A DNA stretch of 48,168 nt, taken from positions 1-48,168 of the forward strand of contig SUXY01000016.1 in assembly GCA_015060705.1 (NCBI GenBank), given 5' to 3'. Every line of letters starts with the position of its first letter. Position 1 is the first letter of the stretch. Source of the stretch: Bacteroides sp. GTDB lineage: Bacteria; Bacteroidota; Bacteroidia; Bacteroidales; Bacteroidaceae. Shown in pieces: positions 22,473 to 43,826 of this stretch. A model generated the notes under the pieces. That model saw only the letters and a list, made by a program, of their open reading frames with translations. It made no database searches and was not told where the DNA came from. A program made the translations under genes and the position numbers.

Positions 22473-22489
22473 ATTTAAATTAACTGCTT

Positions 22490-26900: not shown

Positions 26901-27198
26901 TATGAACGTAGGTGCCAACTGGCAGACTATTTCTGACATCTACATTGAAGATGCAAGCTACTTCCGTTTGCAGAACCTCACATTGGGTTATGACTTCAAG
27001 TATTTGTGGAAGAATTGTCCGTTCCCACAATTGCGTCTCTATGTGGCAGCACAGAACCTCTTCACTATTACAGGATACAAGGGTATGGATCCTGAAAACG
27101 GTAAGGCTATCGGTAGCGAATCATGGGTAACAGGTGTTGACGTTGGTAACTATCCACAACCACGTACATTCCTGGTAGGCGTGAATGTTAAATTCTAA
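23947..27198 (+). CDS. SusC-family TonB-dependent outer membrane transporter
   Basis: This 1,083-residue protein imports oligosaccharides across the outer membrane, powered by TonB. It has a signal peptide ending near PQVWAA and an N-terminal carboxypeptidase-regulatory-like domain (KITGTILDQAGIPVIGANV, residues about 43-115). The TonB-box region DEVVVVGYGIQKKK follows, then the plug domain with PGVNIQANSGQPGDG and IERIDVLKDAASCAIYGS. The rest is the beta-barrel, which ends in the terminal Phe of VGVNVKF. Codon use is strongly biased, consistent with high expression. SusD follows after 18 bases. The neighbouring GH26, GH130 and epimerase genes suggest mannan oligosaccharides as the ligand. 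Confidence 0.95.
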   Translation: MNLKIKKNALVASACMAFLLGGAPQVWAADFDSVTAAQQQTKKITGTILDQAGIPVIGANVLEKGTSNGTITNLDGKFTLNVKPGATLHISYIGYKVEEITVGSAQNYQITLKEDTERLDEVVVVGYGIQKKKLVTGATVEVKGEDIAKLNTTQALGALQSQTPGVNIQANSGQPGDGFKISIRGAGTNGNTAPLYIIDGVAGDINNLNPADIERIDVLKDAASCAIYGSAAANGVILVTTKQGKEGKLQISYDANIGISNVYRLPQMLTAKQYMEVQDVMQFNTGSPLWNWSDYLDADLLAAYQSGANPGTNWVEAIRNKDAVTTSHALNITGGTDRSKISLGAGYQYQDGVFGNVVKSDYRRFTFRINSEHILYRNSKGMDVVKVGETMYYSHKQSQGIQIGNQYSNALSTMLRANPLVPMYNADGEYFNWEDIQNSGTKGLQNYNQYTVNPILVLVNSQNAANKSVNHGFNLSGYLEIQPIKNLIYRGQVNYNQSTWSWRSFLPVFTANALTADGFRSESQATNQLGTGWGWSTTNTLNYRFDIKDHNFDVLLGTEYGESRPDYGFSLSATASNAIFDDLRHAYMDYMKNNASATVSGSPYGDSRSFSYFGRLNYNWKETYMLSAIMRADGNSKFAPGQRWGYFPSVSAGWVISNEAFMEDLQGKIDFLKLRAGWGQNGNAGSVGNFQWQGTFQFGPYGNYSFNSNKDGYTSGAYPSRLENLDLTWETSEQMNIGLDARFLNSRLNFTFDYYQKKTKDLLVQVPIDASTGFSTMWSNAGTVKNEGFEVALAWHDQIGKDFNYNIGWNMAYNKNKVTEVNSSQKYNNGGNDLLSQGTGVIARFEEGHPIGYFWGYKTDGVIQNEQDLAAYKSTLLNGDPANSRQGSSLQVGDLKFVDVNGDGILNDNDKTNLGNPHPDVTMGINLGASYKGFDFNVTGFAALGQEVARSYRKFADGAQENFTTEVYDYWNGEGTSNKYPRFARMNVGANWQTISDIYIEDASYFRLQNLTLGYDFKYLWKNCPFPQLRLYVAAQNLFTITGYKGMDPENGKAIGSESWVTGVDVGNYPQPRTFLVGVNVKF

Positions 27199-27216
27199 TT
27201 TAAATTTGAATAGACT

Positions 27217-28968
27217 ATGAGAAAGATATATATATTAGCAGCTTCAGCCTTGATGACATTCGGTCTTGCTTCGTGCGACATCGACAATGTCGAAAACTTC
27301 GGCGAACTTTCTTCTGGAAACTTCCCAGCCTCAGATGTGGATGGTGAAGCTACTTTGGCTGGTGTTTACCAAAACCTCAACCAGACACATGGTACTCCTC
27401 AGCAATCATTCCTTTACTACGCATGTTTGGCCAGTGACGACCAATTGGGCGGTGGTGGAGACAATGACAAGTTGATGCAGGCTCATGACTTGATTTTGAA
27501 CAACGGTGCCGACATGACTAACCAGTTCTATGTAGACCGCTATTCTGGTATCAACCGTGCCAACATGTTGATTTCGGCATTGCCGAACACTTCCATGTCG
27601 GAAGAAATCAAGGCACAGTATTTAGGTGAAGCACTTTTCCTCCGTGCATTCTACTATTATGAATTGTCATCCATGTACGGTAACGTGCCTTTGCGTACTG
27701 CAGCAGGAGGTGAAACCATGCAACAAGGCAACATCGAAGATATCTGGAAGCAGATTCTTCAGGACTTGCGTGATGCCATCGAAATGATGCCAGCAAAGAA
27801 GAGCACTTCAGCCGGCCACATAGACAAGTATGCAGCTGAAGCCATGTTGGGTAGAGCTTGGTTGTTCTATACAGGTTTCTTCTGCAACGGTTCTTCTATC
27901 GCAGACCTTACCAGCACTAACTACAGTCCGTTGACTAGCGTAGAATTGTTGGATGGTACTACATTGACCAAGCAAGATGTAATCGCTTACATCGACGACT
28001 GTGTAAATAACTCTGGTTATTCATTGGTTCCTGACTTCCGTAACCTTTGGGCTTACACCAACCGCTTGACAGTAGAAGATTACGACTACACCAAGGGACA
28101 AGGTTTGAAGTGGGTAGAAGACGACAGCGCTGACAATCCTGAATCATTGTTCGCTATCAAGTTCAATAAGTTCGCTTCTTGGAGCACTACTATCGGTTAT
28201 GCAAACGGTATCGCTCTTCACTTCGGTGTACGTGGTGGTTCTACAGACGCTAAGTACTTCCCATTCGGTTATGGTTGGGGTGCAGGTCCTGTAGCTCCAA
28301 ACTTGGTAAAGGATTGGGAAACTCAAGAGCCTAACGATATGCGTCGTGAAGCTACCATCAAAGACTGGTTGTCACATCCGGGCTTCCAACTCGGTGGCGG
28401 TGGCGACTTTGTACAGGAAACTGGTTATTACGGCAAGAAGTGGTCTCCTATCATGACTTACAACGAAAGTGGTGGTATCACTAGCTGCTTCGACTATTTG
28501 ATGTACGAAGGCAACTGGGATACAGCTGGTGGTGACAACTTCCAGTTGAACAACATCCACGACTTAGTATTGATTCGCTTCGCCGATGTTCTTTTGATGC
28601 AGAGTGAATTGAAGGAAGATGTAGCTGGTATCAATAAGGTACGTGCCCGTGCCGGTTTGGATCCGATTGCAGCTTATTCATTGACAGCTCTCCAGAACGA
28701 ACGTCGTTGGGAATTGGCTTGTGAAGGTGTCCGTTGGAACGACCTCCGCCGTTGGCACATTGCTGCAACAGCTTTGGCTAAGCAGGAAAACCAAGTGGTA
28801 TATCACGCAGGTGCTGAAGAAACCAATGCTCCTCACAATGGAGGTTATGCTGCACGTTACAACGCTACAGCTGGTTTCCAAAAAATGCCTGACACACAGA
28901 TTGCGATTGGTACAGTGGTTCAGAACGAAGGTTGGACCGGTTCTGACTCCGAATACCAAGCATGGTAA
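27217..28968 (+). CDS. SusD/RagB-family outer membrane lipoprotein
   Basis: This 583-residue surface lipoprotein captures oligosaccharides and hands them to its SusC partner. The signal MRKIYILAASALMTFG ends in the lipobox GLASC. SusD-type features are YSGINRANMLISALPN and the early helical repeat LGEALFLRAFYYYELSSMYG. The C-terminal NKVRARAGLDPI and NERRWELACEGVRWNDLRRW are close to the family signature. It is 18 bases downstream of susC with the same biased codon use, so the pair is co-transcribed. The probable ligand is beta-mannan, inferred from the locus. Confidence 0.95.
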   Translation: MRKIYILAASALMTFGLASCDIDNVENFGELSSGNFPASDVDGEATLAGVYQNLNQTHGTPQQSFLYYACLASDDQLGGGGDNDKLMQAHDLILNNGADMTNQFYVDRYSGINRANMLISALPNTSMSEEIKAQYLGEALFLRAFYYYELSSMYGNVPLRTAAGGETMQQGNIEDIWKQILQDLRDAIEMMPAKKSTSAGHIDKYAAEAMLGRAWLFYTGFFCNGSSIADLTSTNYSPLTSVELLDGTTLTKQDVIAYIDDCVNNSGYSLVPDFRNLWAYTNRLTVEDYDYTKGQGLKWVEDDSADNPESLFAIKFNKFASWSTTIGYANGIALHFGVRGGSTDAKYFPFGYGWGAGPVAPNLVKDWETQEPNDMRREATIKDWLSHPGFQLGGGGDFVQETGYYGKKWSPIMTYNESGGITSCFDYLMYEGNWDTAGGDNFQLNNIHDLVLIRFADVLLMQSELKEDVAGINKVRARAGLDPIAAYSLTALQNERRWELACEGVRWNDLRRWHIAATALAKQENQVVYHAGAEETNAPHNGGYAARYNATAGFQKMPDTQIAIGTVVQNEGWTGSDSEYQAW

Positions 28969-28999
28969 AATTGTTTGTTAACTTAAAATCGATTTAGGT

Positions 29000-30520
29000 A
29001 TGAAAAAGATATTAATCCCTGCATGTGCAATCATTGGATTGTTCACCGCTTGCGACCCTGCGATAGACGATATCGTAACTCCGAGTACCGACGTGACTGC
29101 GGAACAATTGGCCAATGGATTCACATACGTGCAATATAGTGATGAAGAATGTACCACTCAGGCTGCTGACGGTAACTTCCTCAAGTTCGAAACTTCACCA
29201 TCCAGAGTAGTGGAAATCTACCAATTGGACGACGAAGGCAACAAGAATGTTTTGAAGAGCGGTGTAGCTAGCGGCGTATTCAAGCTTGCTCCAAAACGTG
29301 GTGGTTCTCCATCTCAGACATTCTATGTAACTACCATCAATTGGGACGGCTCTTATTTGACATTCGATGTGACTGCCAACGTATTCGTTCCAACCGAATT
29401 GGCTCCTGAAATGCGCTTGCTCGCTAGTGACGCATACGGCAAGAAGGTTTGGAAGTGGGATACTTCATGGCGTGCTGACGGTGGTGCTTGGGGTAACAAA
29501 GCATATACAAATGGAGGACCAGCTGACGACTTCGTTAATAACGGAGGTGGTATATGGTGGGGCTGTCCACCTGCTGATTTGGTTGGTCAATTAGGTCACT
29601 CAGATACAGGTGTTGCCACAGGTGAAGAACATCCAGATGCTTATATGGAATTCTACGACGACGGTAACATTATCACTTATGATGCAGCTGGAAATCAAAT
29701 CCGCAAAGGCAAGTATTCTGTAACAGGATATACAGGAGAACGCAATAGTGTTGCACAAGACGGTACAGAAAATTGGTCACTTGGTACTCTAACGACCACA
29801 GAAGGTACAATCCTTTTCCCGTTCCAAATTAATGGTGGAGGATATAAACCTACAGATTTTGAGATCCTACAGCTTGACGCAAATCATTTAAAATTGATTT
29901 ATGCAAAAGCTGGTGCAGGAAGCTGGGATGAAGCTACCTGGTGGGCATTTAAGAGTGAATCAGATGCTGAAGCTTCATTGACTAACTTCAGCGCAAAGAG
30001 TTGGACATGGGATACAGAATTCCGTGCTGATGGTGCAGTTTGGGGTAATAAAGCATACACAAACGCAGCAAGCGGTTCTGACTTTGCAATCAATGGTGGC
30101 GGTGTATGGTGGGGTTGTCCTCCAGCAGACTTGACAGGTCAGTTGGGTCACTCTGATACCGGTGCTGCAACCGGCGAAGAAGATCCGAACGCTTACATGA
30201 CATTCGATTGGAAAGCTGGTACGGTGACTTCTTACGATGCTGGTGGAAACGCTATCCGTAGCGGTAAGTTTGAAATTACAAATTGGGGTAATGGAGAACG
30301 AACTCAAAATGGACTTGATGGTACAACAGATTGGGCATTAGGTACACTCAACACCGATGCAGGTTCTATCCTCTTCCCATTCCAAATCAACGGTGGTGGA
30401 AACAAGCCAACAGCATTCGAAATCCTTCAGCTTGATGGTGATCACATGAAACTAGTTTATGGAACACCTGAAGCTGGTAGTTGGGGTGAAGCTACTTGGT
30501 GGGCATTCAAGAAGAAATAA
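29000..30520 (+). CDS. Surface glycan-binding lipoprotein with two tandem modules
   Basis: This 506-residue lipoprotein (lipobox LFTAC) sits where SusE or surface glycan-binding proteins are usually encoded, 31 bases after susD. Residues about 30-140 look like an Ig-type domain. Two homologous modules of about 170 residues follow, at residues 148-319 and 333-505. Both contain near-identical blocks such as GNKAYTN, GGG[IV]WWGCPPADL, GQLGHSDTG, ILFPFQINGGG and EATWWAFK. The Trp-rich repeated blocks suggest two sugar-binding sites. I do not recognise the module as a named binding family. Function as a mannan-binding protein is inferred from position. Confidence 0.75.
   Translation: MKKILIPACAIIGLFTACDPAIDDIVTPSTDVTAEQLANGFTYVQYSDEECTTQAADGNFLKFETSPSRVVEIYQLDDEGNKNVLKSGVASGVFKLAPKRGGSPSQTFYVTTINWDGSYLTFDVTANVFVPTELAPEMRLLASDAYGKKVWKWDTSWRADGGAWGNKAYTNGGPADDFVNNGGGIWWGCPPADLVGQLGHSDTGVATGEEHPDAYMEFYDDGNIITYDAAGNQIRKGKYSVTGYTGERNSVAQDGTENWSLGTLTTTEGTILFPFQINGGGYKPTDFEILQLDANHLKLIYAKAGAGSWDEATWWAFKSESDAEASLTNFSAKSWTWDTEFRADGAVWGNKAYTNAASGSDFAINGGGVWWGCPPADLTGQLGHSDTGAATGEEDPNAYMTFDWKAGTVTSYDAGGNAIRSGKFEITNWGNGERTQNGLDGTTDWALGTLNTDAGSILFPFQINGGGNKPTAFEILQLDGDHMKLVYGTPEAGSWGEATWWAFKKK
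29441..30517 (+). repeat. Internal tandem duplication in the glycan-binding lipoprotein gene
   Basis: Two copies of one coding module (about 29441-29956 and 29996-30514) are in the same frame. Their products share long identical blocks, for example WGCPPADL and QLGHSDTG. The copies differ at many synonymous sites. Confidence 0.85.
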
Positions 30521-30541
30521 TCCTTTCTTCAAATAATAAAT

Positions 30542-30571: not shown

Positions 30572-30643
30572 TAATATATACCTTCTCCCGAAAAGACGGG
30601 CACAAGCAACCACTTTCACGACCTACAGGCGATCGCTGAAAGA

Positions 30644-30711: not shown

Positions 30712-30885
30712 TCATAGCGGTTTAACTTCTCACCTATAAGGACGAATCCTCATCAAGGAAGTTCAGTCTAATTATCTGATAAACAACGAATCTGAAGTTT
30801 CTGAAGAACTTTTGTGATTTTTTGTTCAACTTTACATACAATCCACTTCCATATTCGAAGAATAAATTGTAACTTCGCTAGCTAT

Positions 30886-32487
30886 ATGAAAAACATTGAC
30901 TTGAAATATTATTTGGCATCCAGTTTGTTCTGTGTCATAGTCTTCTTGTTCTGGCTATTGGGCTTTCCTCAAGCCATGAACTATCAAGAACAAAACCAAT
31001 TGTTCTTATTCACGAACGACTACTTCTGGAACGACATGCGCATAGCCGGTGGATTAGCCGATTATATCAGCGAGTTCATTGTACAATTCTATTATGTGCC
31101 TTGGTTGGGAGCATTGTTGTTGGCTTTGATGTTCGTTATCCTTCAACAACTTACCTGGAAGCTGATGAAGCAACATAGTGACACCTATTTTCCACTAAGT
31201 TTCCTTCCTGCCTTATTTATGCTTTGGCACATGGGGGACATCAATACATTACTCTCTTTTCCCGTTGCAACAATCCTGACCATGTTTGCAGCATACTTAG
31301 CCCGAAGCATGCATCGAGGTTTCGACCTGCTGATAGTTCCCCTACTCTATTGGCTGGTTGGTCCAACGGTATGGATTTATGTATTGCTCCGTTGTATCGA
31401 AAAGGGGCTGAAAAGCTTCTGGGCAATGGCCTATTTAGTAGGCATCCAAGGGTTGGCATACTATGCCTTTTTGGAGCAATGGCCTCGGGATATGGTCATT
31501 ACAGGATTGAATTACTATCGCATTCCGATGCAAACCCCGATGCTCCAAATCGTTACTCCACTATCAATCGTTGCCGTAGTAGCTATCAGCCGATGGATTA
31601 AGTCAAGAATGATACTGACCGTCATTTCACAAGCAACGGTCATCGCCACAGCTAGCATGGCCATTACTGATGGCTATGACAGTGAGATGTACGAACTTCT
31701 GAAACAGGACGAGCTGGTCAGAAAGGAACGTTGGACAGAAATCATCGAACGAGCAGAGAAAGAACAAGTACAAAATGCCTTCAGTTCCCAATGTGTAAAT
31801 CTAGCATTGGCAATGACCGAACAACTGCCCGACCGGATGTTCCAGTTCTATCAAAGTGGAACAGATGCCTTATTGATGCCGATGGTACGCGATAACACGT
31901 CAAATCTACCTACCGCTGAAGCCTTCTTCCATTTGGGTATGATAAACGAATCGTTGCGCTACATGTTTGACATCCAACAGTCTATCCTTAACTTCAAGAA
32001 AAGTGGACGATACACCAAACGCATAGCCGAATGTTATTTGATTAATGGTAATTATGCCGTGGCATCCAAACACTTGACGGTATTGGGACAAAGTCTGTTC
32101 TATCGTTCCTGGGCCAAGGAAGCAGCTACTTACTTGAACCGGGATGACAAGATGAACACCCATCCCAAATGGGGAAAACTCCGCCAATTGCGATACAAGG
32201 AACAATTCCTCTATAATTACAACGAAAAGGACAAAATGCTGGGATTGCTCTTCACGAACAACCAACAGAACCGGATGGCCTTGTTCTATTTCATGGGACA
32301 AATGTTGTTGGACGGAAATGTACAAGGGTTTACCCAATACATGCAATGGGTACAACAATACGGTGGTTTTACCCAGATGCCAGCCGGTTATGCCGATGCC
32401 ATGAAATGCATTCAGGCACAGGGAAATCTGCCGGGATCGGAGTATGCGAATTATGTACAACGAATGATGAAAGAACATGAGAAATAG
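30886..32487 (+). CDS. D1: polytopic membrane protein with C-terminal helical-repeat domain
   Basis: This is a 533-residue protein of unknown function. The ATG at 30886 places the first membrane helix (SSLFCVIVFLFWLLGF) right at the N-terminus; an earlier in-frame start is unlikely. About eight hydrophobic segments cover residues 1-255. A soluble, mainly helical tail (about 258-533) follows, with TPR-like features such as AECYLINGNYAVASKHLTVL and FYRSWAKEA. Motifs shared with D2 and D3 are YQEQxQLF near the first helix, a GG-x-n-E[FC]-x-x-QF segment, FYQ-x-GT, FHLG and the LINGxY block. I recall such proteins listed as DUF6057 but could not verify this. It overlaps T1 by 11 bases. Confidence 0.7.
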   Translation: MKNIDLKYYLASSLFCVIVFLFWLLGFPQAMNYQEQNQLFLFTNDYFWNDMRIAGGLADYISEFIVQFYYVPWLGALLLALMFVILQQLTWKLMKQHSDTYFPLSFLPALFMLWHMGDINTLLSFPVATILTMFAAYLARSMHRGFDLLIVPLLYWLVGPTVWIYVLLRCIEKGLKSFWAMAYLVGIQGLAYYAFLEQWPRDMVITGLNYYRIPMQTPMLQIVTPLSIVAVVAISRWIKSRMILTVISQATVIATASMAITDGYDSEMYELLKQDELVRKERWTEIIERAEKEQVQNAFSSQCVNLALAMTEQLPDRMFQFYQSGTDALLMPMVRDNTSNLPTAEAFFHLGMINESLRYMFDIQQSILNFKKSGRYTKRIAECYLINGNYAVASKHLTVLGQSLFYRSWAKEAATYLNRDDKMNTHPKWGKLRQLRYKEQFLYNYNEKDKMLGLLFTNNQQNRMALFYFMGQMLLDGNVQGFTQYMQWVQQYGGFTQMPAGYADAMKCIQAQGNLPGSEYANYVQRMMKEHEK

Positions 32488-33940
32488 TCTGTTTATAATA
32501 TTAATATTCCTCCTAACTGCCTGCACCGAACAAGTCAAGCAAGCCGAATCCATCAACCGGTTGCCACATATCTATCCGGACTACATCGGTGTGACCATAC
32601 CTGCCGGAATTGCCCCACTCAACTTCCAAGTATTGGAACCATCCATCGAGAAGGTAGATGTACATATTACCGGAAATCAAGGAGGTGAACTGCATGTACA
32701 AGACCAATGGGCCAACTTCGACATAAAGAATTGGCACGAACTGACAGAAGCCAACCGAGGAGGAAGCCTCAACATCAAGGTACGAGCCAAAGGGAAAGAA
32801 GGGAAATGGCAAGCATACAAGGACTTTAAGATATTCATCAGTCCCTATCCGTTGGACGATTTCGGTTTAACCTATCGCCGTATCCAACCGGGCTATGAAG
32901 TGGGCGGAAACATCGGCATCTACCAACGTGACATTCATACGTTCGAAGAAACCGCCTTGATGCAGGAATCGGCCGTACCGGGACGATGCTTCAACTGTCA
33001 TACTCCGAACCGTACCAATCCGGAAACCTTTACCCTACAAGTGAGAGGCGAAGGAGGCGGAACTTTGGTACAAAAGGATAGTGTACAGACCTGGTACAAC
33101 ACCAAGACCGACCAAACGAAAGCTGCCGGCAGTTATGCTTCCTGGCATCCAGATGGAAGATATTGTGCCTATGCTGCCAATGCCGTCCATCAGAGTTTCT
33201 TTGTAGGTAAGGACCGGAACATTGAAGTATATCACTCCTTCAGCAACATCGTGGTACTGGATACCCAAACCGGAGAACTGATTGTATCCCCTCTGTTGAA
33301 CACCGATGCGCTGGAAATCTTCCCGGCATTCTCTGCCGATGGAAAGACACTCTATTTCAGCACTTCGGAGAACTGCAACGTTCCAGCGGAATACGAAAAA
33401 GTGAAGTGTAGCCTATGCGCCATCTCCTTCGATGCAACTACCGGCACCTTTGGCCATCAGGTAGACACCTTGCTTCACGGACCAGCCACCGACAAGAGTT
33501 ACATCCAGGCACGTCCCTCTTACGATGGCCGTTGGTTGATGTTCTGTAGAGCGGAACGTAGTAATTTCCCTGTCAGTCAGAAAGAATCTGATTTGTGGTT
33601 GATGGACTTACAAACCGGAAAGTTCCGTTGTTTGGATGAAGTGAACAGTCCTCAAACGGAAAGTTATCCTAACTGGAGCAGCAACAGCCATTGGTTCGTC
33701 TTCTCCAGCAAGAGTGAAGACGGTCTCCATAGCCGTGCATACCTGGCCAGTATCGACGAGGAAGGCAAGGTTACCAAACCTTTCCTGCTCCCCCAAGAAA
33801 ATCCATTGAAGTATTATCGGAATATGTTCGATTCATTCAATTGTCCGGATTTCACGTCCAGCCAAGTGGAATTTGACATACGGACAGCACGGGAGAACCT
33901 ATTTTCAAACGAAAGAGTACAAGTAAAGATTAAAGAATAA
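32477..33940 (+). CDS. T1: lipoprotein with one CxxCH motif and PD40-like propeller repeats
   Basis: This 487-residue lipoprotein (lipobox LLTAC) has an N-terminal domain opening with IYPDYIGVTIPAGIAPLNF. A single haem-c-type motif CFNCH follows at residues 171-175, then TPNRTNP. The C-terminal half contains PD40/TolB-like strands: SWHPDGRYCAYAAN, AFSADGKTLYFSTS, RPSYDGRWLMFCRA and NWSSNSHWFVFSSK. His224 in HPDG is conserved in all three T proteins and could be a distal haem ligand (inferred). It would sit in the periplasm or outer membrane. The CxxCH might instead bind metal or form a disulfide. The start overlaps D1, which suggests coupled translation. Function unknown. Confidence 0.7.
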   Translation: MRNSLFIILIFLLTACTEQVKQAESINRLPHIYPDYIGVTIPAGIAPLNFQVLEPSIEKVDVHITGNQGGELHVQDQWANFDIKNWHELTEANRGGSLNIKVRAKGKEGKWQAYKDFKIFISPYPLDDFGLTYRRIQPGYEVGGNIGIYQRDIHTFEETALMQESAVPGRCFNCHTPNRTNPETFTLQVRGEGGGTLVQKDSVQTWYNTKTDQTKAAGSYASWHPDGRYCAYAANAVHQSFFVGKDRNIEVYHSFSNIVVLDTQTGELIVSPLLNTDALEIFPAFSADGKTLYFSTSENCNVPAEYEKVKCSLCAISFDATTGTFGHQVDTLLHGPATDKSYIQARPSYDGRWLMFCRAERSNFPVSQKESDLWLMDLQTGKFRCLDEVNSPQTESYPNWSSNSHWFVFSSKSEDGLHSRAYLASIDEEGKVTKPFLLPQENPLKYYRNMFDSFNCPDFTSSQVEFDIRTARENLFSNERVQVKIKE

Positions 33941-33944
33941 AACA

Positions 33945-34580
33945 ATGAAAAAGATAATTGCAACAATAGCTTTGGCAGCAACTTTCATCGGTTGTACTTC
34001 TACGTCAAAAACGGAGGATGGTCTCTGCCACATCCAAGGCACGACCAACGAACGCTTTGAAGGCAAGAAGATATTCCTCCTTCCTGCCGAAGGACCTGCG
34101 ACCATGGAAACGGTAGACTCCGTAGTCGTTACCAACGGGAAGTTTGCCTTCCAATCCGAACCGGGTGAAATGAAGATTATCCGTATTGATTACCGTTACC
34201 GTACGGGAGTAGAAGATTTGCTGGTGGTGATGGAACCGGGAAATCTGGAAGTCATCATCGATAGTATCAGCAGTGGTAAAGGTACTCCCCAAAACGACAC
34301 GCTGCAAGCATGGAAGGAACGCACCATGCAGCATTATCGGAGCCTCGCCCCTTACCGCATCCAAGCCAGAGAAGCCGAAAAAGCAGGAGACCGGGCAACC
34401 GTCGAAGCCTTGAAACAAAAAATAGAGAGTCTGGAAAAAGCATACAAGAAGTATTCCCGCGACTTGACCGACCGCTTGAAGGAAGGTACCTTGTACGAGT
34501 TTCTGAATACTCGCTTCCCGTATAGCTATCCAAAGAAAATGCCCGATGGTACCATTACCACCGTCCATGTAGAGTACTAA
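33945..34580 (+). CDS. L: DUF4369-like lipoprotein without a thioredoxin domain
   Basis: This 211-residue lipoprotein has the signal MKKIIATIALAATF and the lipobox FIGCT. Residues about 25-110 resemble the DUF4369 domain, with CHIQGTTNERFEGKKIFL, VDSVVVTNGKFAFQS and a PGNLEVIIDS-type strand. A charged helical stretch with coiled-coil character follows (REAEKAGDRATVEALKQKIE). In Bacteroidetes this domain usually precedes a thioredoxin-like domain with CxxC. Here the protein ends after the helices and no CxxC is present. It lies 4 bases after T1 and is followed by D2. A role as a binding or assembly partner of the D/T proteins is only inferred. Confidence 0.65.
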   Translation: MKKIIATIALAATFIGCTSTSKTEDGLCHIQGTTNERFEGKKIFLLPAEGPATMETVDSVVVTNGKFAFQSEPGEMKIIRIDYRYRTGVEDLLVVMEPGNLEVIIDSISSGKGTPQNDTLQAWKERTMQHYRSLAPYRIQAREAEKAGDRATVEALKQKIESLEKAYKKYSRDLTDRLKEGTLYEFLNTRFPYSYPKKMPDGTITTVHVEY

Positions 34581-34591
34581 AAATGATACAC

Positions 34592-36268
34592 ATGAAAAAC
34601 ATCCTTACCAACAAATACAGTGGCATTGCGCTGACTGCCCTTTTCGGTATCGTCGCCTTCCTTTTCTGGAGGGTCTTCTATCCGCATGCTTTGGTCTATC
34701 AGGAACAATACCAACTTTTCCAGTTCGATTCCTCGTACATCCTCGAACGAATCAGTCTACCGGGAGGAGTAGCTGCCGTCATCGCTGAATGCCTGACACA
34801 GTTCTACAATCACCCGACCATCGGAGCCATCATCCAATCGCTTCTGTTGGTAGGTATCCAACTCATGACTTGGCTGCTGATGAAGCGGAACGGACAACAA
34901 GGAATTCAATACATCAGCAGTTTCATTCCGGCATTGATATTGTGGTATGTATTGGGAGATGAAAGTGTGTTGACCATTTACTCCTGGTCGTTATTGCTCA
35001 CGCTGACAGCCATGCTATTCCATCCTCAAAGCTCCAAAGCCAGCATGATATATACTTTAATCTTCATTCCAATCATATATTGGATCGTAGGTCCGTTGGT
35101 ATTGCTTTATACCCTCTTTGTCACTATCCAGTCTGTCAAGAAGAAAGACTATTTGATAGGAATCGGTGTATTGCCTTATGCCGTGTCCTTCATCGTGCTC
35201 AGCAGTCAATGGTTCCCCTACCCGGTTCATCGTTTGTTTACCGGACTTTTCTATTACCGGTTTGTCGACATTTATCCTTATTGGCTCATGGCTGTACCTG
35301 TACTTTGCTTATTGGTGACAAGCTTCCGTATACATCCTGTGTTGTCCATAGCTCCGATGCTTCTCATACCATTCGGTTACGATGCCAAGAAATACGAACT
35401 GATGGAATACGATTATCTGATTCGTCGCCAACAATGGGACGCCATCATTGCCAAGGCGGAGAAGCAACAGCCCGACATGCCGATGAGTGTATGTGCCACC
35501 AACTTGGCCCTCGGCATGAAGAACCAGTTGGGCAACCGTGCATTCCGGTTCTATCAACATGGCACCGAAGGCTTGTTGCCGAAGTTTGAACGCGACTTTA
35601 CATCGGCTTTGCTCACGGGAGAAGTATACTATCATCTGGGATTGGTCAACACCGCCCAACGTCATGCATTCGAAGCCATGGAAGCCATTCCGAACTACAA
35701 CAAAAGCGGTAGAATCGTCAAGCGATTGGCAGAAACGAACCTAATCAACGGACAATACAAGGTAGCGGAGAAGTATCTTCGAATGTTGGAAAAAACAGTC
35801 TTCTATCGTACTTGGGCGAAGGACAAGCTCCAATTGATTGCTCATGAAGAACAGATAGACAAGCATCCACTGTACGGACGGATGCGCCAGTTCCGCCTGC
35901 AGGAAGATTTCCTGTTCAGCGACACCGAGTTGGACAAGATATTCGGACAATTGTTCATGCACAATCCGAAGAATCAACTGGCCATCCAGTATCTGCTGAT
36001 TCATCCGCTCTTGAACAAAGACATCGATAGCTTCATGCGCTATCTGATTGCGGTACAGGAGAAAGTAAAATATAACCCGACCGTATGTCAGGAAGGTATC
36101 ATCTTTGCCTATACCCAACGTCAACAAACGGTGCCGGAAGGATTTGTAAATCCAACCATCCAACAGAGTTTCAAACGGTTTGCACAAGTCTATTCGCAAG
36201 GAGGACAAAACTCACCGCAACTAGAAGCTTTCAAAGGTACTTTATGGTATTATTTAATGAAGGAATAA
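34592..36268 (+). CDS. D2: polytopic membrane protein, paralogue of D1
   Basis: This 558-residue paralogue of D1 has the same plan. The first helix (ALTALFGIVAFLFWRVF) is followed by VYQEQYQLFQFDSSY, about eight further hydrophobic segments to residue 260, and a helical tail. The tail motifs align with D1: YELMEYDYLIRRQQWDAII, NLALGMKNQLGNRAFRFYQ, YYHLGLVN, AETNLINGQYKVAEKYLRML and VFYRTWAKD. I chose the ATG at 34592, since MKN matches the D1 start; an ATG at 34583 would add three residues. The gene is 3 bases upstream of T2. Function unknown. The tail could be a protein-interaction module for the T partner (inferred). Confidence 0.7.
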   Translation: MKNILTNKYSGIALTALFGIVAFLFWRVFYPHALVYQEQYQLFQFDSSYILERISLPGGVAAVIAECLTQFYNHPTIGAIIQSLLLVGIQLMTWLLMKRNGQQGIQYISSFIPALILWYVLGDESVLTIYSWSLLLTLTAMLFHPQSSKASMIYTLIFIPIIYWIVGPLVLLYTLFVTIQSVKKKDYLIGIGVLPYAVSFIVLSSQWFPYPVHRLFTGLFYYRFVDIYPYWLMAVPVLCLLVTSFRIHPVLSIAPMLLIPFGYDAKKYELMEYDYLIRRQQWDAIIAKAEKQQPDMPMSVCATNLALGMKNQLGNRAFRFYQHGTEGLLPKFERDFTSALLTGEVYYHLGLVNTAQRHAFEAMEAIPNYNKSGRIVKRLAETNLINGQYKVAEKYLRMLEKTVFYRTWAKDKLQLIAHEEQIDKHPLYGRMRQFRLQEDFLFSDTELDKIFGQLFMHNPKNQLAIQYLLIHPLLNKDIDSFMRYLIAVQEKVKYNPTVCQEGIIFAYTQRQQTVPEGFVNPTIQQSFKRFAQVYSQGGQNSPQLEAFKGTLWYYLMKE

Positions 36269-36271
36269 ACT

Positions 36272-37732
36272 ATGAACAAATGGATATTCATCTTCTTGGC
36301 AACGATGATGTGTGCTTGCCAACAAGAAGTCAAAAATGCAATCAAGGTAGATGAAATGCCTCCTATCTACCCCGATTATATCGGTGTTACCATCCCTGTC
36401 GGTATCGCTCCCCTGAACTTTGATTCGGAGGAAGAAGCAGATCGAATGGACGTGTTTGTCAAAGGAAGCCAACAAGGAGAATTGCATGTGCAAGGAAAGT
36501 ATGCAGCCTTCGACGTGGAAGACTGGCACCAATTGCTCCAAGCCAACCAAGGAGGAAAGCTTACCTTCTCGGTATGCATCCAACAGAAAGGCCAATGGTA
36601 CCGCTACCAAGATTTTGAGATGCAAGTTAGTTCCTATGCATTGGAAGATTACGGACTGACTTACCGAAGAATTGCTCCGGGATATGAGGTATACAGTCAC
36701 ATGGGACTCTACGAACGCGAACTGGCTACCTTTGAAGAAAGAGCCATCATCGAGAACACCCAAGTGCCGGGCATGTGTGTGAATTGCCATACGCCTAACC
36801 GTACTAACCCGGACGCATTTGTTTTCCATGTGCGTGGTTCTCATGGAACCACCTTAGTTCAACGAGATGGACAATTCGAAGTATTGAAAGCACAGAACGA
36901 TAGCATCAAGGGGTCAATGGTATACCCGTATTGGCATCCTTCAGGAAAGTATTGTGCATTTTCCACCAACCAGACACGCCAAGGTTTCCACATGGTGAAG
37001 GACGAACGCATCGAAGTATTCGACCTTTCCTCGGATGTCTTTGTATACGATGTAGAAAAACGGGAACTGATACTCGACTCCTTGCTGATGACTCAAAGCC
37101 ATTCAGAAAATGTACCCGTCTTCTCACCAGACGGAAAGACCATCTATTACATGACGGCTCTCCAACAATCCTATCCGTTGGATTACAAGAAGGAACAATA
37201 CAACCTTTGTCGCATCGGTTTCGATGCGGAGAAAGGCAAGTTCGGTGAGAAAGTCGATACAGTCTTCAATGCCGTACAGATGAACAAGAGCTTGACATGG
37301 CCGCGTCCTTCCTACGACGGCAAGTACCTCATGTTCAACTTAATGGATTATGGCTATTTCTCCATTTGGCACAAGGAGAGTGACTTGTGGCTGATGAACC
37401 TTGAAACCGGAGCATCCTTCCCATTGGAAGCAGCCAACAGCGAAGATGCTGACAGCTACCACAATTGGAGCATCGGCTCTCATTGGTTTGTCTTCACCAG
37501 CCGCAGAGAGAACGGTCTTTATTCCCAACTCTATCTGTCGTGCATCGACGACGAAGGAAAACCGACCAAGCCGTTCCTTCTGCCACAGAAAGACCCGAAG
37601 AAATATTATGCCACCACGCTATACTCGTTCAATACACCTGACTTCACTTCCCGTCCGGTGGAATTCGATTCGCGTGCAGCATCGTCAGCTATCAGTAGCG
37701 ACAAACGTATCCCAACCAGCATCAAACAATAG
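36272..37732 (+). CDS. T2: CxxCH/PD40 lipoprotein, paralogue of T1
   Basis: This 486-residue protein is similar to T1 along its whole length. A short signal peptide ends in a cysteine-rich MMCACQQE, and the second Cys fits the lipobox. The N-terminal IYPDYIGVTIPVGIAPLNF is nearly identical to that of T1. CVNCHTPNRTNP at residues 169-180 carries the haem-c-type motif. Propeller strands are YWHPSGKYCAFSTN, VFSPDGKTIYYMTA, RPSYDGKYLMFNLM and NWSIGSHWFVFTSR, again with the conserved His of HPSG. It lies between D2 (3-base gap) and D3 (2-base gap), so the genes form one transcript. Function unknown. Confidence 0.7.
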   Translation: MNKWIFIFLATMMCACQQEVKNAIKVDEMPPIYPDYIGVTIPVGIAPLNFDSEEEADRMDVFVKGSQQGELHVQGKYAAFDVEDWHQLLQANQGGKLTFSVCIQQKGQWYRYQDFEMQVSSYALEDYGLTYRRIAPGYEVYSHMGLYERELATFEERAIIENTQVPGMCVNCHTPNRTNPDAFVFHVRGSHGTTLVQRDGQFEVLKAQNDSIKGSMVYPYWHPSGKYCAFSTNQTRQGFHMVKDERIEVFDLSSDVFVYDVEKRELILDSLLMTQSHSENVPVFSPDGKTIYYMTALQQSYPLDYKKEQYNLCRIGFDAEKGKFGEKVDTVFNAVQMNKSLTWPRPSYDGKYLMFNLMDYGYFSIWHKESDLWLMNLETGASFPLEAANSEDADSYHNWSIGSHWFVFTSRRENGLYSQLYLSCIDDEGKPTKPFLLPQKDPKKYYATTLYSFNTPDFTSRPVEFDSRAASSAISSDKRIPTSIKQ

Positions 37733-37734
37733 GT

Positions 37735-39168
37735 ATGAGCAAGTGGAAGACATATAGCAAGTGGATAGTCATGGCACTGGGAGTCGTGGCGACTTTCCTC
37801 TTTTTCCAGCTTCACTATCCCTATCACTTGCTCCATCGGGAACAGGTTTCGCTATTCCTGTACAGCCAAGAATTCATCCTTGACAAGTTGATGCAACCGG
37901 GTGGAGTATCCATCTTGGGAGGGGAATTCCTGACACAGTTCTTCTACTTCATCGGAGGTGGAGCAACGGTAGTTACCCTCTTGCTTTTAGGGGTAGGCAT
38001 CCTATGCTATCAGGCACTCCGTCGGTTCATGGGACATTGGATGGCACTCATCCTTTCCGTTGCTGTATGTCTTTGGGAAGGAGGCAGACTCTGTATCGTC
38101 AATTATCCATTGGCCTCTACCCTCTCGCTGATGGGACTCTTCATCATCATCCGACTGATTTCCTTCAAAGGGTCCAACCGTTTAGGCAAGAACCTAACCG
38201 CATTGGTCTGCATACTCCTGTTCATTCCTTTTCATCCTCTGCGAGGCGTGAAAGCTTGGGGAACCCCCAATTCCTATTTGGAACATCTGTTGGCTATGGA
38301 CGTCAACGCCTCTTATGGGAAATGGGAAAAGGTAAGCCAACTGGCACAAGAGGATGCCAAAACAGGTATCGGAACCTTTTACTACAACTTATCCAATGCC
38401 ATGAAAGGCCAATTGCCAGACGGACTGATGAACTATTACCAACCGTTCAGCAAAGGCTTGTTCCTGCCGGTTGACCCATCGGGTAACTATCTGTCGTTCA
38501 TGGCATCCAATGAACTTTGGTTCCATTTAGGCGACATGACCATGGCAGAGCATAGCGCCATCCTCGGCATGATTTCTACTCAGGACCACCGCAGCGTCCG
38601 AATGATTAAACGCATGGCGGAAATCAACTTGATTAACGGGGATGAAGAAGCCGCCATGAAGTATCTCCGCATGTTACAGAAAACCTGGAAACACAAACAA
38701 TGGGCCGACCAACGAATTCCAGGTCAACAATCACCAGCCGTACAGAAATGGTTGGAGCACAAACGCCAATACATTCCGAAGGCCGATACCCTCCGTGCAT
38801 CAGCCGATGCGCGTCTGTCATTGCGCCATTTGTTGGAAAGCAACCCGGATAATCTGTTGGCTTACCACTATCTGCTATGCTACGAATTGCTGAACAAGGA
38901 TATTCACTCCTTCGCGAAAGATTACGTACCTCAAAAGGGAATACCTAGCCGACTCTATCACGAAGCCATCCTGATTCATCTGATTCGTCAGAACGGCAAT
39001 CTCACGGAAGAAGATTTCCAGACCTATCGGTTTACCCCCGAAGTGCTTCAGGACTTTCAGGAGTACACCCGCATGTATGAACAAAACCAAGGTAATGGAG
39101 CCGCCCTTCAATCCCGATTCGGGAAGACCTATTGGTTCTATTATCACTATGCAACGATGAAGAAATGA
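37735..39168 (+). CDS. D3: shorter polytopic membrane protein, paralogue of D1 and D2
   Basis: This 477-residue paralogue keeps the first helix and HREQVSLFLYSQEFILDKL, then GGVSILGGEFLTQFF. It has only about five hydrophobic segments before the soluble tail begins near residue 170. The region that gives the last three helices in D1 and D2 is missing. The tail retains AMKGQLPDGLMNYYQ, LWFHLGDMTMAEH, AEINLINGDEEAAMKYLRML and a Trp/Tyr-rich end (YWFYYHYATMKK). Its stop overlaps the T3 start as ATGA. The shortening is a clean loss without a frameshift, so it looks like a functional variant. Function unknown. Confidence 0.68.
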   Translation: MSKWKTYSKWIVMALGVVATFLFFQLHYPYHLLHREQVSLFLYSQEFILDKLMQPGGVSILGGEFLTQFFYFIGGGATVVTLLLLGVGILCYQALRRFMGHWMALILSVAVCLWEGGRLCIVNYPLASTLSLMGLFIIIRLISFKGSNRLGKNLTALVCILLFIPFHPLRGVKAWGTPNSYLEHLLAMDVNASYGKWEKVSQLAQEDAKTGIGTFYYNLSNAMKGQLPDGLMNYYQPFSKGLFLPVDPSGNYLSFMASNELWFHLGDMTMAEHSAILGMISTQDHRSVRMIKRMAEINLINGDEEAAMKYLRMLQKTWKHKQWADQRIPGQQSPAVQKWLEHKRQYIPKADTLRASADARLSLRHLLESNPDNLLAYHYLLCYELLNKDIHSFAKDYVPQKGIPSRLYHEAILIHLIRQNGNLTEEDFQTYRFTPEVLQDFQEYTRMYEQNQGNGAALQSRFGKTYWFYYHYATMKK

Positions 39169-40637
39169 AAAGAAAGAACATAAATAATGCCTATTCATGG
39201 ATGATTTTGATGGTCATCCTTCTCATCACCGCCTGCACGCCACAACCCGAAAACGTGACGGACACAGCCGAACTTGCCCCAATCTATCCCGACTATACGG
39301 ACATCACTATCCCATCCAATATCGCTCCTTTGAACTTCCTGCTCCGCAATGAAGCAGAAGCCATTCAGGTTACCCTTCAGGGAGAAAAGGAAAATTGGAC
39401 CATTCAGTCGGACGACGCTCACGTATGTTTCCCGTTGAAGAAATGGCACGAGTTTCTGAAAGCGAATCAAGGAGAAACAATAGCCGTCAGTCTCATTGCT
39501 TTGAAAGAAGGGAAATGGGTACGCTATCCTTCCTTCCAATGGACAATAAGCAAAGATAAGATAGACAGTTACCTCAGTTACCGACTGATAGAACCGGCCT
39601 ACGAAGTTTGGAATGAAGTGGAAATACGGGAGCGGAACATCGAGAACTTCGATGAGAAAGTGCTTTCCACCCACGAAAACACCAACAATGCCTGCATGAA
39701 TTGCCACATCTACGGTAACAACAGCGGTGACCTTTCCATGTTCCATCTAAGAGGTCCTAATGGAGGAAGCATCCTCAACCGGGACGGTCAGCTCCGTAAG
39801 CTTACTTTGAAGAATCAAGACATGATATCGGCGACTGTGTATGGCGATTTCCATCCATCCGGTCGTTTCGGGGTATTCTCTACTAACATCATCATTCCTG
39901 CGTTCCATGCCTTCGAGAACGAGCGATTCGAGGTATACGATACCGCCTCCGATTTGGTGATAACTGACTTTGACGAAAACCGGCTCATTAGCTCACCGTT
40001 GATAGCAGACAAGGGTACATTCGAGACCTTCCCGACCTTCTCACCGGATGGGAAATATGTCTATTTCTGTACGGCAGACACCGTAGCACTTCCGGAAGAC
40101 ATCGAACAGCTGAAGTATTCCTTGTGCCGCATTGCTTTCGATGCAGAAACCAAACAATGGGGCGAACAAGTGGATACTTTGTGGAATGCCAAGGAAATGA
40201 ACGGTTCCGTCTGTCACCCGAAAATTTCTCCAGACGGTAAATACTTGCTATATACCGTGGCAGCTTACGGCACCTTCCCTATTTGGCATCGCGAAACCGA
40301 ACTCCAGATGATGAACCTACAGACGGGAGCCATCGATTCGTTGAAGAACGTCAATTCCAACCGCTCGGAAACGTATCACAGTTGGTCTTCCAACAGCCGT
40401 TGGTTTGTCTTCGCCAGCAAGCGAGGAGACGGGCAATACGGAAAGCCTTACTTCTGTTATGTGGACGAGAACGGGCAGGCTCACAAACCGTTTGTCCTTC
40501 CGCAGAAACATCCCGACCATTACGACATGACGTTGAAATCGTTCAACATTCCTAACTTGTCGGCCTCACCCACTCCTTTCGATGCCAAGGACATCGGACG
40601 GATTTTTGAAAAGATACCGGCCGAAGTGTTCCAATAA
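39165..40637 (+). CDS. T3: divergent CxxCH/PD40 lipoprotein
   Basis: This is the 490-residue third member of the T family. I chose the ATG at 39165, which overlaps the D3 stop; an upstream TTG at 39132 would add 11 residues with no signal character. The signal is preceded by a longer polar start, and the lipobox is LITAC. The shared opening is IYPDYTDITIPSNIAPLNF. The haem-c-type motif is CMNCH (residues 177-181), but the following TPNRTNP of T1 and T2 is replaced by IYGNNSGD. Propeller strands include DFHPSGRFGVFSTN, TFSPDGKYVYFCTA and SWSSNSRWFVFASK. It ends the D/T cluster, 88 bases before the GH26 gene. Function unknown. Confidence 0.68.
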   Translation: MKRKNINNAYSWMILMVILLITACTPQPENVTDTAELAPIYPDYTDITIPSNIAPLNFLLRNEAEAIQVTLQGEKENWTIQSDDAHVCFPLKKWHEFLKANQGETIAVSLIALKEGKWVRYPSFQWTISKDKIDSYLSYRLIEPAYEVWNEVEIRERNIENFDEKVLSTHENTNNACMNCHIYGNNSGDLSMFHLRGPNGGSILNRDGQLRKLTLKNQDMISATVYGDFHPSGRFGVFSTNIIIPAFHAFENERFEVYDTASDLVITDFDENRLISSPLIADKGTFETFPTFSPDGKYVYFCTADTVALPEDIEQLKYSLCRIAFDAETKQWGEQVDTLWNAKEMNGSVCHPKISPDGKYLLYTVAAYGTFPIWHRETELQMMNLQTGAIDSLKNVNSNRSETYHSWSSNSRWFVFASKRGDGQYGKPYFCYVDENGQAHKPFVLPQKHPDHYDMTLKSFNIPNLSASPTPFDAKDIGRIFEKIPAEVFQ

Positions 40638-40684
40638 TACAAGGTTTGGACAAGATAGTATCAGCAGAGGAAAGTTAGAAAATG

Positions 40685-40692
40685 TATATTTG
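40685..40692 (+). promoter_or_regulatory. Candidate -7 box for the GH26 gene
   Basis: TATATTTG fits TAnnTTTG and lies 33 bases upstream of the GH26 ATG. It suggests that the GH26-GH130-esterase unit can be transcribed apart from the D/T cluster. Confidence 0.5.
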
Positions 40693-40725
40693 CAATAGTG
40701 AATATTGTAAACAACAAAAAAATAT

Positions 40726-41838
40726 ATGCGTATGAAAAAACTGTTCATTTCCTCTCTGCTAGCCATGGGGCTTTTGTCTTGCGGACAACCCAAACAGACC
40801 GAAGAAAAAGCACCGGTCAAGTCTCCGGAAGCGGAAGCCTTATTGAAAAACTTGAAGTCTCTTCCTGAAAAAGGATACATGTTCGGACACCACGACGATA
40901 CCAACTACGGCATCTGTTGGGAATTCGAAGAAGGTCGTTCGGATGTTCAGAGCGTTTGCGGTGACTACCCTGCAGTCATCAGTTTCGATTTGGGACACAT
41001 CGAATTGGGACACGATGTCACCCTCGACAAGGTTCCTTTCGACAAGGTTCGTCAAGAAACCATCAACCAGTACCAACGTGGCGGTATGGTATCGTTCAGT
41101 TGGCATTTGGACAACCCGTTGACCAACGGTGACTCTTGGGATGTAAGCGACAATACCGTGGTAGAATCCATCCTTCCAGGTGGAGCGAATCACGAAAAAT
41201 TCATGACTTGGATGGACCGCTTGGCTACTTTCATGAACTCGCTCCAGACAGCCGACGGCAAGAAAATTCCTGTATTCTTCCGTCCATGGCATGAGCATAC
41301 CGGTAGCTGGTTCTGGTGGGGACAGAAGCTTTGTACCACCGAACAATACAAGGCATTGTGGCGCATGACCTACGACTATCTGCAAGAAAAGGGAGCCAAC
41401 CACTTGTTGTATGCATACTCTCCAGGTACTGAATTCAACGACAGCACTTCCTATTTGGAACGCTATCCAGGTGATGACATCATCGATTTGATTGGTTTCG
41501 ACACTTACCAATCCCAAAGCAAGGATTTTTATTTACAGACATTGGCCAGCCGTCTGCCGATTTTGACCGAGATAGGCAAGGCACACAATAAGGTCATCGC
41601 CATTACCGAAACCGGTTACGAAGGTATTCCGGATGCAGAATGGTGGACCGGTACCTTGGCTCCGGCTATTCAGGACTTCCCGATAGCCTATGTCTTGGTA
41701 TGGCGTAATGCCCGCGAAAGAGTGACTCACCACTATGCCCCTTATCCGGGTCATCCATCTGCCGATGACTTTGTGAAGTTCTACAACCAAGAGAAGACCT
41801 TGTTTGCCAAGGATGTGAAAGAAATTCTTTATCGTTAA
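40726..41838 (+). CDS. GH26 beta-1,4-mannanase lipoprotein
   Basis: This 370-residue lipoprotein (lipobox LLSC) hydrolyses beta-1,4-mannan chains to mannobiose and other short oligosaccharides. The clan-A barrel carries FGHHDDTNYGI, VISFDLGHIELG and FSWHLDNP. FFRPWHEHTGSWFWWG holds the predicted acid/base Glu190, and IAITETG holds the nucleophile Glu295. The length is close to single-domain GH26 mannanases of Bacteroides. A second ATG at 40732 could also be the start. The lipid anchor may place it at the cell surface or in the periplasm. It is 16 bases upstream of the GH130 gene. Confidence 0.92.
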   Translation: MRMKKLFISSLLAMGLLSCGQPKQTEEKAPVKSPEAEALLKNLKSLPEKGYMFGHHDDTNYGICWEFEEGRSDVQSVCGDYPAVISFDLGHIELGHDVTLDKVPFDKVRQETINQYQRGGMVSFSWHLDNPLTNGDSWDVSDNTVVESILPGGANHEKFMTWMDRLATFMNSLQTADGKKIPVFFRPWHEHTGSWFWWGQKLCTTEQYKALWRMTYDYLQEKGANHLLYAYSPGTEFNDSTSYLERYPGDDIIDLIGFDTYQSQSKDFYLQTLASRLPILTEIGKAHNKVIAITETGYEGIPDAEWWTGTLAPAIQDFPIAYVLVWRNARERVTHHYAPYPGHPSADDFVKFYNQEKTLFAKDVKEILYR

Positions 41839-41854
41839 CTTCAAGAATCTATCT

Positions 41855-43033
41855 ATGAATACGGAATTCAAAAAACGTGTGGAAAAGCTATTTGCTGAAC
41901 ACGAAACCCTCATAACCCGCCCTAACAAGCCGGTAGAAAATGGTAACGGTATCTTTACCCGTTATGAATATCCCATCTTGACCGCCGCCCATACACCTGT
42001 ATTTTGGCGGTACGATCTGGATGAAACAACCAATCCATACCTCATGGAACGCATCGGCATGAATGCCGCTTTCAATTCCGGAGCCATGAAATGGAACGGC
42101 AAGTATTTGTTGGTAGTCCGTGTAGAAGGAGCCGACCGTAAGTCCTTCTTTGCCGTAGCCGAAAGCCCGAACGGTATCGACAACTTCCGTTTCTGGGACT
42201 ACCCGATTACTATGCCGGAAGACGTGATTCCGGCTACCAACATCTACGATATGCGTCTCACCGCCCACGAAGACGGCTGGATTTATGGCATCTTCTGTGC
42301 CGAACGCCACGATGACAATGCCCCGGCAGGCGATTTATCATCCGCAACAGCCACAGCAGCCATAGCCCGTACTAAGGATTTTATCACCTGGGAACGCCTA
42401 CCGGATTTGAAGACAAAGAGCCAACAACGCAACGTAGTGCTTCACCCAGAATTTGTAGAAGGAAAATATGCGCTCTATACCCGTCCACAAGATGGATTCA
42501 TCAATGCTGGTAGTGGTGGTGGTATCGGTTGGGCGTTGGTAGACGACATGACTTGCGCCGAAGTCAAGGAAGAAAAGATTATCGACCTTCGCTATTACCA
42601 CACCATCAAGGAAGTGAAGAACGGAGAAGGTCCACATCCTATCAAGACTTCAAAAGGTTGGTTACATTTAGCACATGGCGTACGCGGATGTGCCGCCGGT
42701 TTGCGTTATGTACTTTACATGTACATGACTTCGCTGGAAGACCCAACCAAAGTAATAGCAGCACCTGCCGGACACCTTATGGGTCCGATTGGTGAAGAAC
42801 GAATTGGTGATGTTTCGAACGTTCTGTTCTCCAACGGATGGATTGCCGACGAAGATGGTAAGGTATTCATATATTACGCATCGAGCGATACCCGCATGCA
42901 TGTAGCGACATCTACCATCGAACAATTGGTGGATTATTGTATGAATACTCCTGCAGACGGTTTCCGTTCAGGCACTTCTGTTGAGACATTGAAGAAACTT
43001 ATTGAAAAGAACTTGAAACTGATGAACAAATAG
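41855..43033 (+). CDS. GH130 4-O-beta-D-mannosyl-D-glucose phosphorylase
   Basis: This 392-residue cytosolic enzyme cleaves beta-1,4-mannosyl-glucose with phosphate to give mannose 1-phosphate and glucose. It has no signal peptide. GH130 features are FNSGAMKWNGKYLLVVRVEG, TNIYDMRLTAHEDGW with Asp132 as the expected catalytic acid, YTRPQDGFINAGSGGGIGW, and GPHPIKTSKGWLHLAHGVR. The length is close to the Bacteroides fragilis phosphorylase (about 390). The epimerase encoded at 22490 would supply its substrate from mannobiose. The SGNH gene starts one base after its stop codon, so the two are coupled. Confidence 0.93.
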   Translation: MNTEFKKRVEKLFAEHETLITRPNKPVENGNGIFTRYEYPILTAAHTPVFWRYDLDETTNPYLMERIGMNAAFNSGAMKWNGKYLLVVRVEGADRKSFFAVAESPNGIDNFRFWDYPITMPEDVIPATNIYDMRLTAHEDGWIYGIFCAERHDDNAPAGDLSSATATAAIARTKDFITWERLPDLKTKSQQRNVVLHPEFVEGKYALYTRPQDGFINAGSGGGIGWALVDDMTCAEVKEEKIIDLRYYHTIKEVKNGEGPHPIKTSKGWLHLAHGVRGCAAGLRYVLYMYMTSLEDPTKVIAAPAGHLMGPIGEERIGDVSNVLFSNGWIADEDGKVFIYYASSDTRMHVATSTIEQLVDYCMNTPADGFRSGTSVETLKKLIEKNLKLMNK

Positions 43034-43034
43034 T

Positions 43035-43826
43035 ATGAAAAGAATCACTTTCATCGTCAGCCTTCTGATGTGTGTATCTTTGGCACAAGGACAAGCCGTC
43101 TTCCCCGATTTCAGCAAGATGCACTTCGGATGTGATGGAAACAGCATTACAGCAGGCAACCAATGGTCCAAGACTGTGGTAGATGTGCTGGGATTCGCTA
43201 CCCATCACAATGTGGCTGTTGGCTCGTCTACTTGGGCTTGCTATGACGACACCCAAGAATACGGATCGGCTAACTTTGCCGGAATCTCAGGCGGATGGCA
43301 ACCAACTACCGATGCTGCCGAAATGCAGAAACGCCACAACAACGTGGCAAAAGTACACATCCAAAAATTCATTGCCGAAGTAGACAACGGCAGTTATCCG
43401 ACTCCCGACGTCTTCGTTTTCTCCATGGGTACGAATGACCGCATTTTGGGTAATGCCGAAGATGCATTGAGAGGCAAGTCATTGGAAGAAGTAGACTTAA
43501 CCACCATGGCAGGCGGTGCCCGTTGGGCCATCCAGACCATCGCAGCCCGCTTCCCCGATTGCCGCATCTTTGTCTGCACACCCATCCAGACAGGCAATCC
43601 GGAACATAATGAAATGAACTTGAAAAAGATTGCTATCCTGAAGGAAATTTGTCAAGCACTCTCGGTGCAAATGATTGACTGCTATTCCAATGCCGGCATC
43701 AGCGAGAAGTTTGAAGTAAAGGACAGCAAGGGACGTTATCTTCGCGATGGTCTTCATCCCGATGAACGGGGACAGCAGTTAATGGGAAGATACATTGCAA
43801 AAGAAATCCGGAACAATTACTATTAA
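43035..43826 (+). CDS. Secreted SGNH/GDSL-family esterase
   Basis: This 263-residue exported hydrolase has a signal peptide ending near LAQGQA. Block I is FGCDGNSITAG with the predicted nucleophile Ser37. Block III is SMGTND, with the oxyanion Asn. Block V is DGLHPDERG, with Asp238 and His241. These are the hallmarks of SGNH carbohydrate esterases. Next to GH26 and GH130 it probably removes acetyl groups from mannan or glucomannan (inferred), complementing the CE7 enzyme at the other end of the locus. Lipase or other esterase activity cannot be ruled out. A strong terminator follows. Confidence 0.87.
   Translation: MKRITFIVSLLMCVSLAQGQAVFPDFSKMHFGCDGNSITAGNQWSKTVVDVLGFATHHNVAVGSSTWACYDDTQEYGSANFAGISGGWQPTTDAAEMQKRHNNVAKVHIQKFIAEVDNGSYPTPDVFVFSMGTNDRILGNAEDALRGKSLEEVDLTTMAGGARWAIQTIAARFPDCRIFVCTPIQTGNPEHNEMNLKKIAILKEICQALSVQMIDCYSNAGISEKFEVKDSKGRYLRDGLHPDERGQQLMGRYIAKEIRNNYY

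Follow-up and report, generated by a model that had tools for sequence, protein, structure and literature searches.

What role do seven additional genes play inside a locus that we read, from the content of the flanking genes, as being of the beta-mannan type? The genes occupy positions 30886-40637 on the plus strand of a 48,168-nucleotide stretch of Bacteroides sp. DNA, referred to below as the window. Their order is D1-T1-L-D2-T2-D3-T3, where D denotes membrane proteins of the DUF6057 family, T lipoproteins with a CxxCH motif and L another lipoprotein. The analysis revealed that D and T form a real, old and partner-specific envelope pair. We put the chances at about even that this pair acts as a dedicated two-protein envelope unit, in which a heme-bearing periplasmic propeller and its private inner-membrane partner would serve as an accessory in mannan loci.

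The genes are tightly spaced: D1 and T1 overlap by 11 bases and D3 and T3 by 4, while the gaps at T1-L, L-D2, D2-T2 and T2-D3 are 4, 2, 3 and 2 bases. An initial annotation, made from the sequence alone, had described this order and spacing and had placed the cluster between SusC-SusD-SGBP and GH26-GH130-esterase genes; coordinates and Pfam matches confirmed both. D1 (30886..32487, +), D2 (34583..36268, +) and D3 (37735..39168, +) belong to DUF6057 (PF19529), a family without assigned function, with scores of 430.6 (E = 1.6e-128), 560.2 (8.4e-168) and 443.6 bits (1.8e-132, in two stretches), all above the curated cut-off of 29.8 bits. ATG was taken as the start of D1, although the frame is open from a GTG at 30814 as well. 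The T proteins are T1 (32477..33940, +; PD40 6.3e-12; CFNCH at 32987-33001), T2 (36272..37732, +; TolB-like propeller; CVNCH at 36776-36790) and T3 (39165..40637, +; PD40 4.5e-14; CMNCH at 39693-39707). Each has one CxxCH, and the short PD40 repeat is the sole domain above cut-off in T1-T3. The lipoprotein L (33945..34580, +) matches DUF4369 (1.6e-9).

Pairing and co-evolution of D and T

The distribution of the two proteins was analyzed in 101 genomes drawn evenly from the family. PF19529 matched 82 of them (E 0.001) and T matched 68 (1e-20). The 14 genomes with D and no T contained weak D matches only (best E from 2.9e-16 to 2.5e-5). When D was counted at E < 1e-30, a threshold chosen after the table had been seen, both proteins were found in 68 genomes, neither in 33 and one alone in none. 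A short DUF6057 relative without T is also present on contig C7 of the window's genome (L018:660-1814), and the weak D matches of the T-less genomes are of similar strength.

A D gene lies within 1 kb of 149 of the 150 T matches that score best; the count was 126 from the listed D matches and reached 149 after a second D search of 22 genomes. D is followed by T on the same strand in 131 of these pairs, T by D in 13, and in five the genes lie on opposite strands. The lone T (genome G299) has no D within 1 kb, the nearest listed D being about 5.6 kb away. In the window's genome (2.95 Mb, 118 contigs, 88% complete) there are six T matches, each directly 3′ of a D. The window accounts for three of them, and contigs C47, C72 and C92 have one apiece. 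The initial annotation had regarded D and T homologues rarely adjacent elsewhere as grounds for abandoning the pairing; these data support instead that D and T are near-obligate neighbours.

In an evenly drawn sample of 296 genomes from the phylum, PF19529 matched 24, three of them above the cut-off: the window's genome and two outside its class. Both of the latter contain an adjacent D-T pair with CxxCH. Weak matches across the phylum were rejected as noise; of three examined by eye, with no family search, two seem FtsW-like and one PMT-like. The out-of-class pairs adjoin a RidA/FkbO-Hyg5-like, chorismatase-type gene (L083:4344-5588 and L084:8873-10063), below the FkbO/Hyg5 cut-off, which is placed after T in one genome and before D in the other.

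For 83 adjacent pairs, distances in the D and T trees were found to correlate with a Mantel r of 0.93. None of 999 free permutations of partners reached this value (maximum 0.15). Swaps of partners within loci (46 pairs, 19 multi-pair loci) gave a mean of 0.45 and a maximum of 0.77, and again none of 999 reached the observed r. Because such swaps break the correlation, each D tracks its own T beyond their shared genome. The data thus support partner-specific co-evolution of D-T pairs, in agreement with the earlier suggestion that each D works with its own T. Co-occurrence, adjacency and co-evolution were computed, whereas binding of D to T is inferred.

The three pairs of the window had been regarded as an old triplication of one pair, and a simple local triplication was not supported. 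D1 and D2 are 37% identical, and D3 is 25-31% identical to either. Across the window's genome, T paralogues share 36-53% identity vs 23-37% for full-length D, so T is the better conserved. T3 is 36-39% identical to T1 and T2 and 41-42% identical to the stand-alone T proteins of the same genome. In the T tree (FastTree, midpoint rooted; clades read from topology, branch supports unexamined), the clades of T1 and T2 are neighbours, and T3 belongs to a separate clade, which also includes pairs from other settings; T1, T2 and T3 each have relatives at corresponding positions in other genera. Because D3 is less similar to D1 and D2 than these are to each other, T3 is no nearer to T1 and T2 than to stand-alone T, and pair 3 comes from another clade, a single local triplication is rejected. 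The pairs look like distinct old lineages rather than the products of recent local triplication.

The CxxCH motif and cytochrome c synthase

According to prediction, T faces the periplasm. In the structural model of T, a small beta domain at the N-terminus is joined to a propeller that resembles that of TolB. TIGR02800 (TolB) gives T1, T2 and T3 scores of 26.5, 20.5 and 26.1 bits, below its equivalog cut-off of 343, and a sequence search for solved relatives of T1 returned none at E 1. In an alignment of 86 full-length T proteins the lipobox cysteine is invariant, and so is the complete CxxCH, including the histidine (86/86). These results, together with the PD40 matches, bear out the description of the T genes in the initial annotation as encoding PD40-like lipoproteins with one CxxCH.

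CxxCH is the site of heme attachment in c-type cytochromes, and the distribution of the cytochrome c synthase was compared with that of T. Of the 68 genomes with T, 62 have CcsA (PF01578) above cut-off, as do 22 of the 33 that lack T; the corresponding figures for high-quality genomes are 49/51 and 14/22. Genomes with NrfA or DHOR were set aside because other clients of the synthase confuse the comparison. This left 18 high-quality genomes, which also lack the CCP_MauG and NapC/NrfH types, with CcsA present in nine of ten with T and in none of eight without (Fisher p 4e-4). Genus g158 is internally consistent, three of its genomes having T and CcsA and one having neither. The window's genome has CcsA, and NrfA and DHOR were not found in it. 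The invariance of CxxCH, taken with a synthase that tracks T, supports heme c on T, and we predict that T is likely to carry it. T would then be a periplasm-facing lipoprotein with, most likely, one covalent c-type heme loaded by the CcsBA synthase. A redox-linked role had been among the earlier suggestions: the motif and the synthase association fit a heme or redox role, and which specific role is something we infer only.

A number of points weigh against heme. In the model, which is heme-free, the CxxCH is part of a strand predicted with modest confidence, an arrangement that differs from the cytochrome c fold. A second axial ligand is never invariant: of the 86 proteins, 60 have H at position 186, 15 have Q and 11 have Y there, and H occurs at position 222 in 74 and at position 397 in 81. 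The exclusion of NrfA and DHOR genomes was decided after the genes beside the synthase had been seen, and the clients screened comprise the four families named above. Without the quality filter CcsA is present in 11/14 genomes with T and 2/13 without. Kinship inflates the statistic; the 18 genomes span five genera on each side. Six genomes have T and no CcsA. ResB is found in G306, where the gene extends to the edge of its contig, in G393 and, weakly, in G300; neither is found in G333, G338 and G358. G333 is 99% complete and has four T matches with no match to CcsA, ResB or DHOR, which reflects either sequence absent from the assembly or genuine loss of the synthase. Overall, the data support heme on T rather than prove it, as relatedness weakens the statistic and the second ligand is not invariant.

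These points could be explained by a heme-free T, whose CxxCH would bind a metal or form a thiol pair with a structural or redox function; T would then be a propeller for binding or assembly that works with D. The strand position of the motif, the variable second ligand and the persistence of T with CxxCH in G333 (the three T proteins examined there, in L068, L095 and L096, retain it) all agree with this explanation. The retention of the full motif with its histidine in every protein aligned and the nine-to-none split of the synthase in genomes without other screened clients speak against it, and we consider it unlikely, if deserving of attention.

Three synthase neighbourhoods were also observed. 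A CcsA-type gene of G381 is found two genes away from a D-T pair (L092:3209-11308), and G343 has a similar neighbourhood without a pair (L089). In the window's genome CcsB/CcsA-type genes adjoin a protein with four CxxCH motifs (L071:1477-6982), so this genome can make other c-type cytochromes.

Genomic setting of the pairs

All flanking genes are on the plus strand. An AXE1-type esterase and an N-acylglucosamine 2-epimerase-family gene lie upstream (21195..23680; 1.8e-46 and 6.9e-37), followed by SusC, SusD and an SGBP-like lipoprotein gene before the cluster (23947..30520; Plug 2.1e-18, SusD_RagB 3e-20). GH26, GH130 and a GDSL esterase come after it (40726..43826; 7.6e-46, 1.7e-22 and 2.3e-12). 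Pfam at 0.001 gives no match for the SGBP-like gene (29000-30520), the two halves of which resemble each other.

Similar arrangements were sought in 21 loci, a non-random sample obtained from a D2 search (L019-L030) and from high-scoring matches (L031-L039). Homologues of L are present in 18 (absent from L022, L027 and L038) and homologues of the window's SusC, SusD or SGBP proteins in 15; three of the remaining six are short contigs (L019, L029, L030). GH26, GH130 and epimerase homologues occur together in L032, L036 and L037, and L022 has GH26 and the epimerase. Rumen genomes of the Prevotella type frequently show the order D-T-L-D-T, with a T-D pair in inverted orientation behind it. Recurrence of the mannan-type setting across several genera is thus supported. 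The pair is carried by gut and rumen Bacteroides and Prevotella relatives, with up to three recruited per mannan-use cluster.

Numerous other pairs occur singly, next to genes of varied kinds; some are in other SusC/SusD loci, one of them with GH31 and GH2. That many pairs lie outside any glycan locus counts against a tie to mannan use, and D-T units are not confined to mannan loci, the window's genome itself having three further pairs elsewhere. The pairs could then be general envelope genes, placed in mannan loci incidentally and taking no part in mannan use. We regard this as improbable: relatives of T1, T2 and T3 hold corresponding spots by SusC/SusD/SGBP or GH26/GH130/epimerase genes in several genera, and the genes are closely spaced within the locus.

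A role in mannan use is suggested by gene position. The D-T pair would be an accessory module, duplicated and recruited to differing loci; in beta-mannan-type loci the SusC/SusD set would have been joined by L and two pairs related to each other, in many cases also by a third from a different clade. There the pairs would most likely serve the periplasmic step of the locus as a sensor, chaperone or processing complex with a link to heme or redox. More tentatively, and with doubts outweighing confidence, D-T may be an undescribed envelope machine, combining heme c in a TolB-like propeller with a private TPR membrane partner in locus-specialised copies; it may account mainly or entirely for the retention of the synthase in some Bacteroidaceae, and it would tie glycan uptake to the periplasmic redox or heme state. 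Many gut and rumen Bacteroidaceae scavenge heme. If T carries heme, the availability of heme would directly affect how these bacteria use glycans.

Other searches of the cluster gave little. None of its seven proteins reached any NCBIfam family cut-off or matched a PADLOC model (E 0.001), so there was no anti-phage defence match. Rfam had no match in 20000-46000. A Bacteroides-type promoter pattern matched twice in the window, at chance level, and not within the cluster, and sigma-70-like sites showed no excess over chance. Terminator-like hairpins in 30300-41000 numbered 25 vs a shuffle mean of 11.0, mostly intragenic and on both strands.

The D proteins and comparison with known systems

The structure of D2 was predicted with a mean predicted local distance difference test score (pLDDT) of 84.3; a search for its solved relatives by sequence returned a chance match only (0.86). 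Conserved parts of D are the first periplasmic loop and the C-terminal TPR-like domain, and these most likely dock its own T. The initial annotation had made D a polytopic membrane protein with a helical tail. The tail is TPR-like in D1 and D2, both predicted inner-membrane proteins of DUF6057, and the description is less apt for D3, which has five hydropathy segments and is missing the middle membrane helices. In the fold lists for D, TPR proteins crowd the rows shown and a GT-C chain is absent from them. We regard it as very improbable that D acts as a glycosyltransferase of the GT-C-like kind, equipped with a TPR tail, for which T positions the acceptor. The conserved acidic/Gln positions of the first loop and the tail recall TMTC-type enzymes. 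Against this reading, position 41 is E in 62 of 83 proteins (Q in 13), and the mid-membrane region, with a mean conservation of 0.15, is missing from D3.

No paper on DUF6057/PF19529 or describing the D-T pair was found in the open PubMed Central (PMC) literature, and we know of no described mannan locus with D-T pairs and L. The description of DUF6057, to which D1-D3 belong, does not include the T partner. To this family the analysis adds a partner that is nearly always adjacent, evidence of co-evolution specific to that partner, a likely pathway for a cofactor and repeated placement in mannan loci. T shares the propeller fold, as modelled, with TolB of the Tol-Pal system and differs from it in sequence (about 14% identity), in being a lipoprotein with CxxCH and in having D as its partner. 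With c-type cytochromes T shares the invariant CxxCH, and it tends to occur together with cytochrome c synthase, whereas its model is a propeller rather than the cytochrome c fold, the second ligand is not invariant and heme on T is putative. D resembles TMTC-type TPR glycosyltransferases in having a membrane part followed by a TPR-like tail, and seems to differ in having no strictly conserved acidic catalytic position; D3 also lacks several helices. Finally, the window's locus shares SusC/SusD, GH26, GH130 and epimerase genes with the beta-mannan loci of Bacteroidetes and is distinguished from them by the D-T pairs and L.
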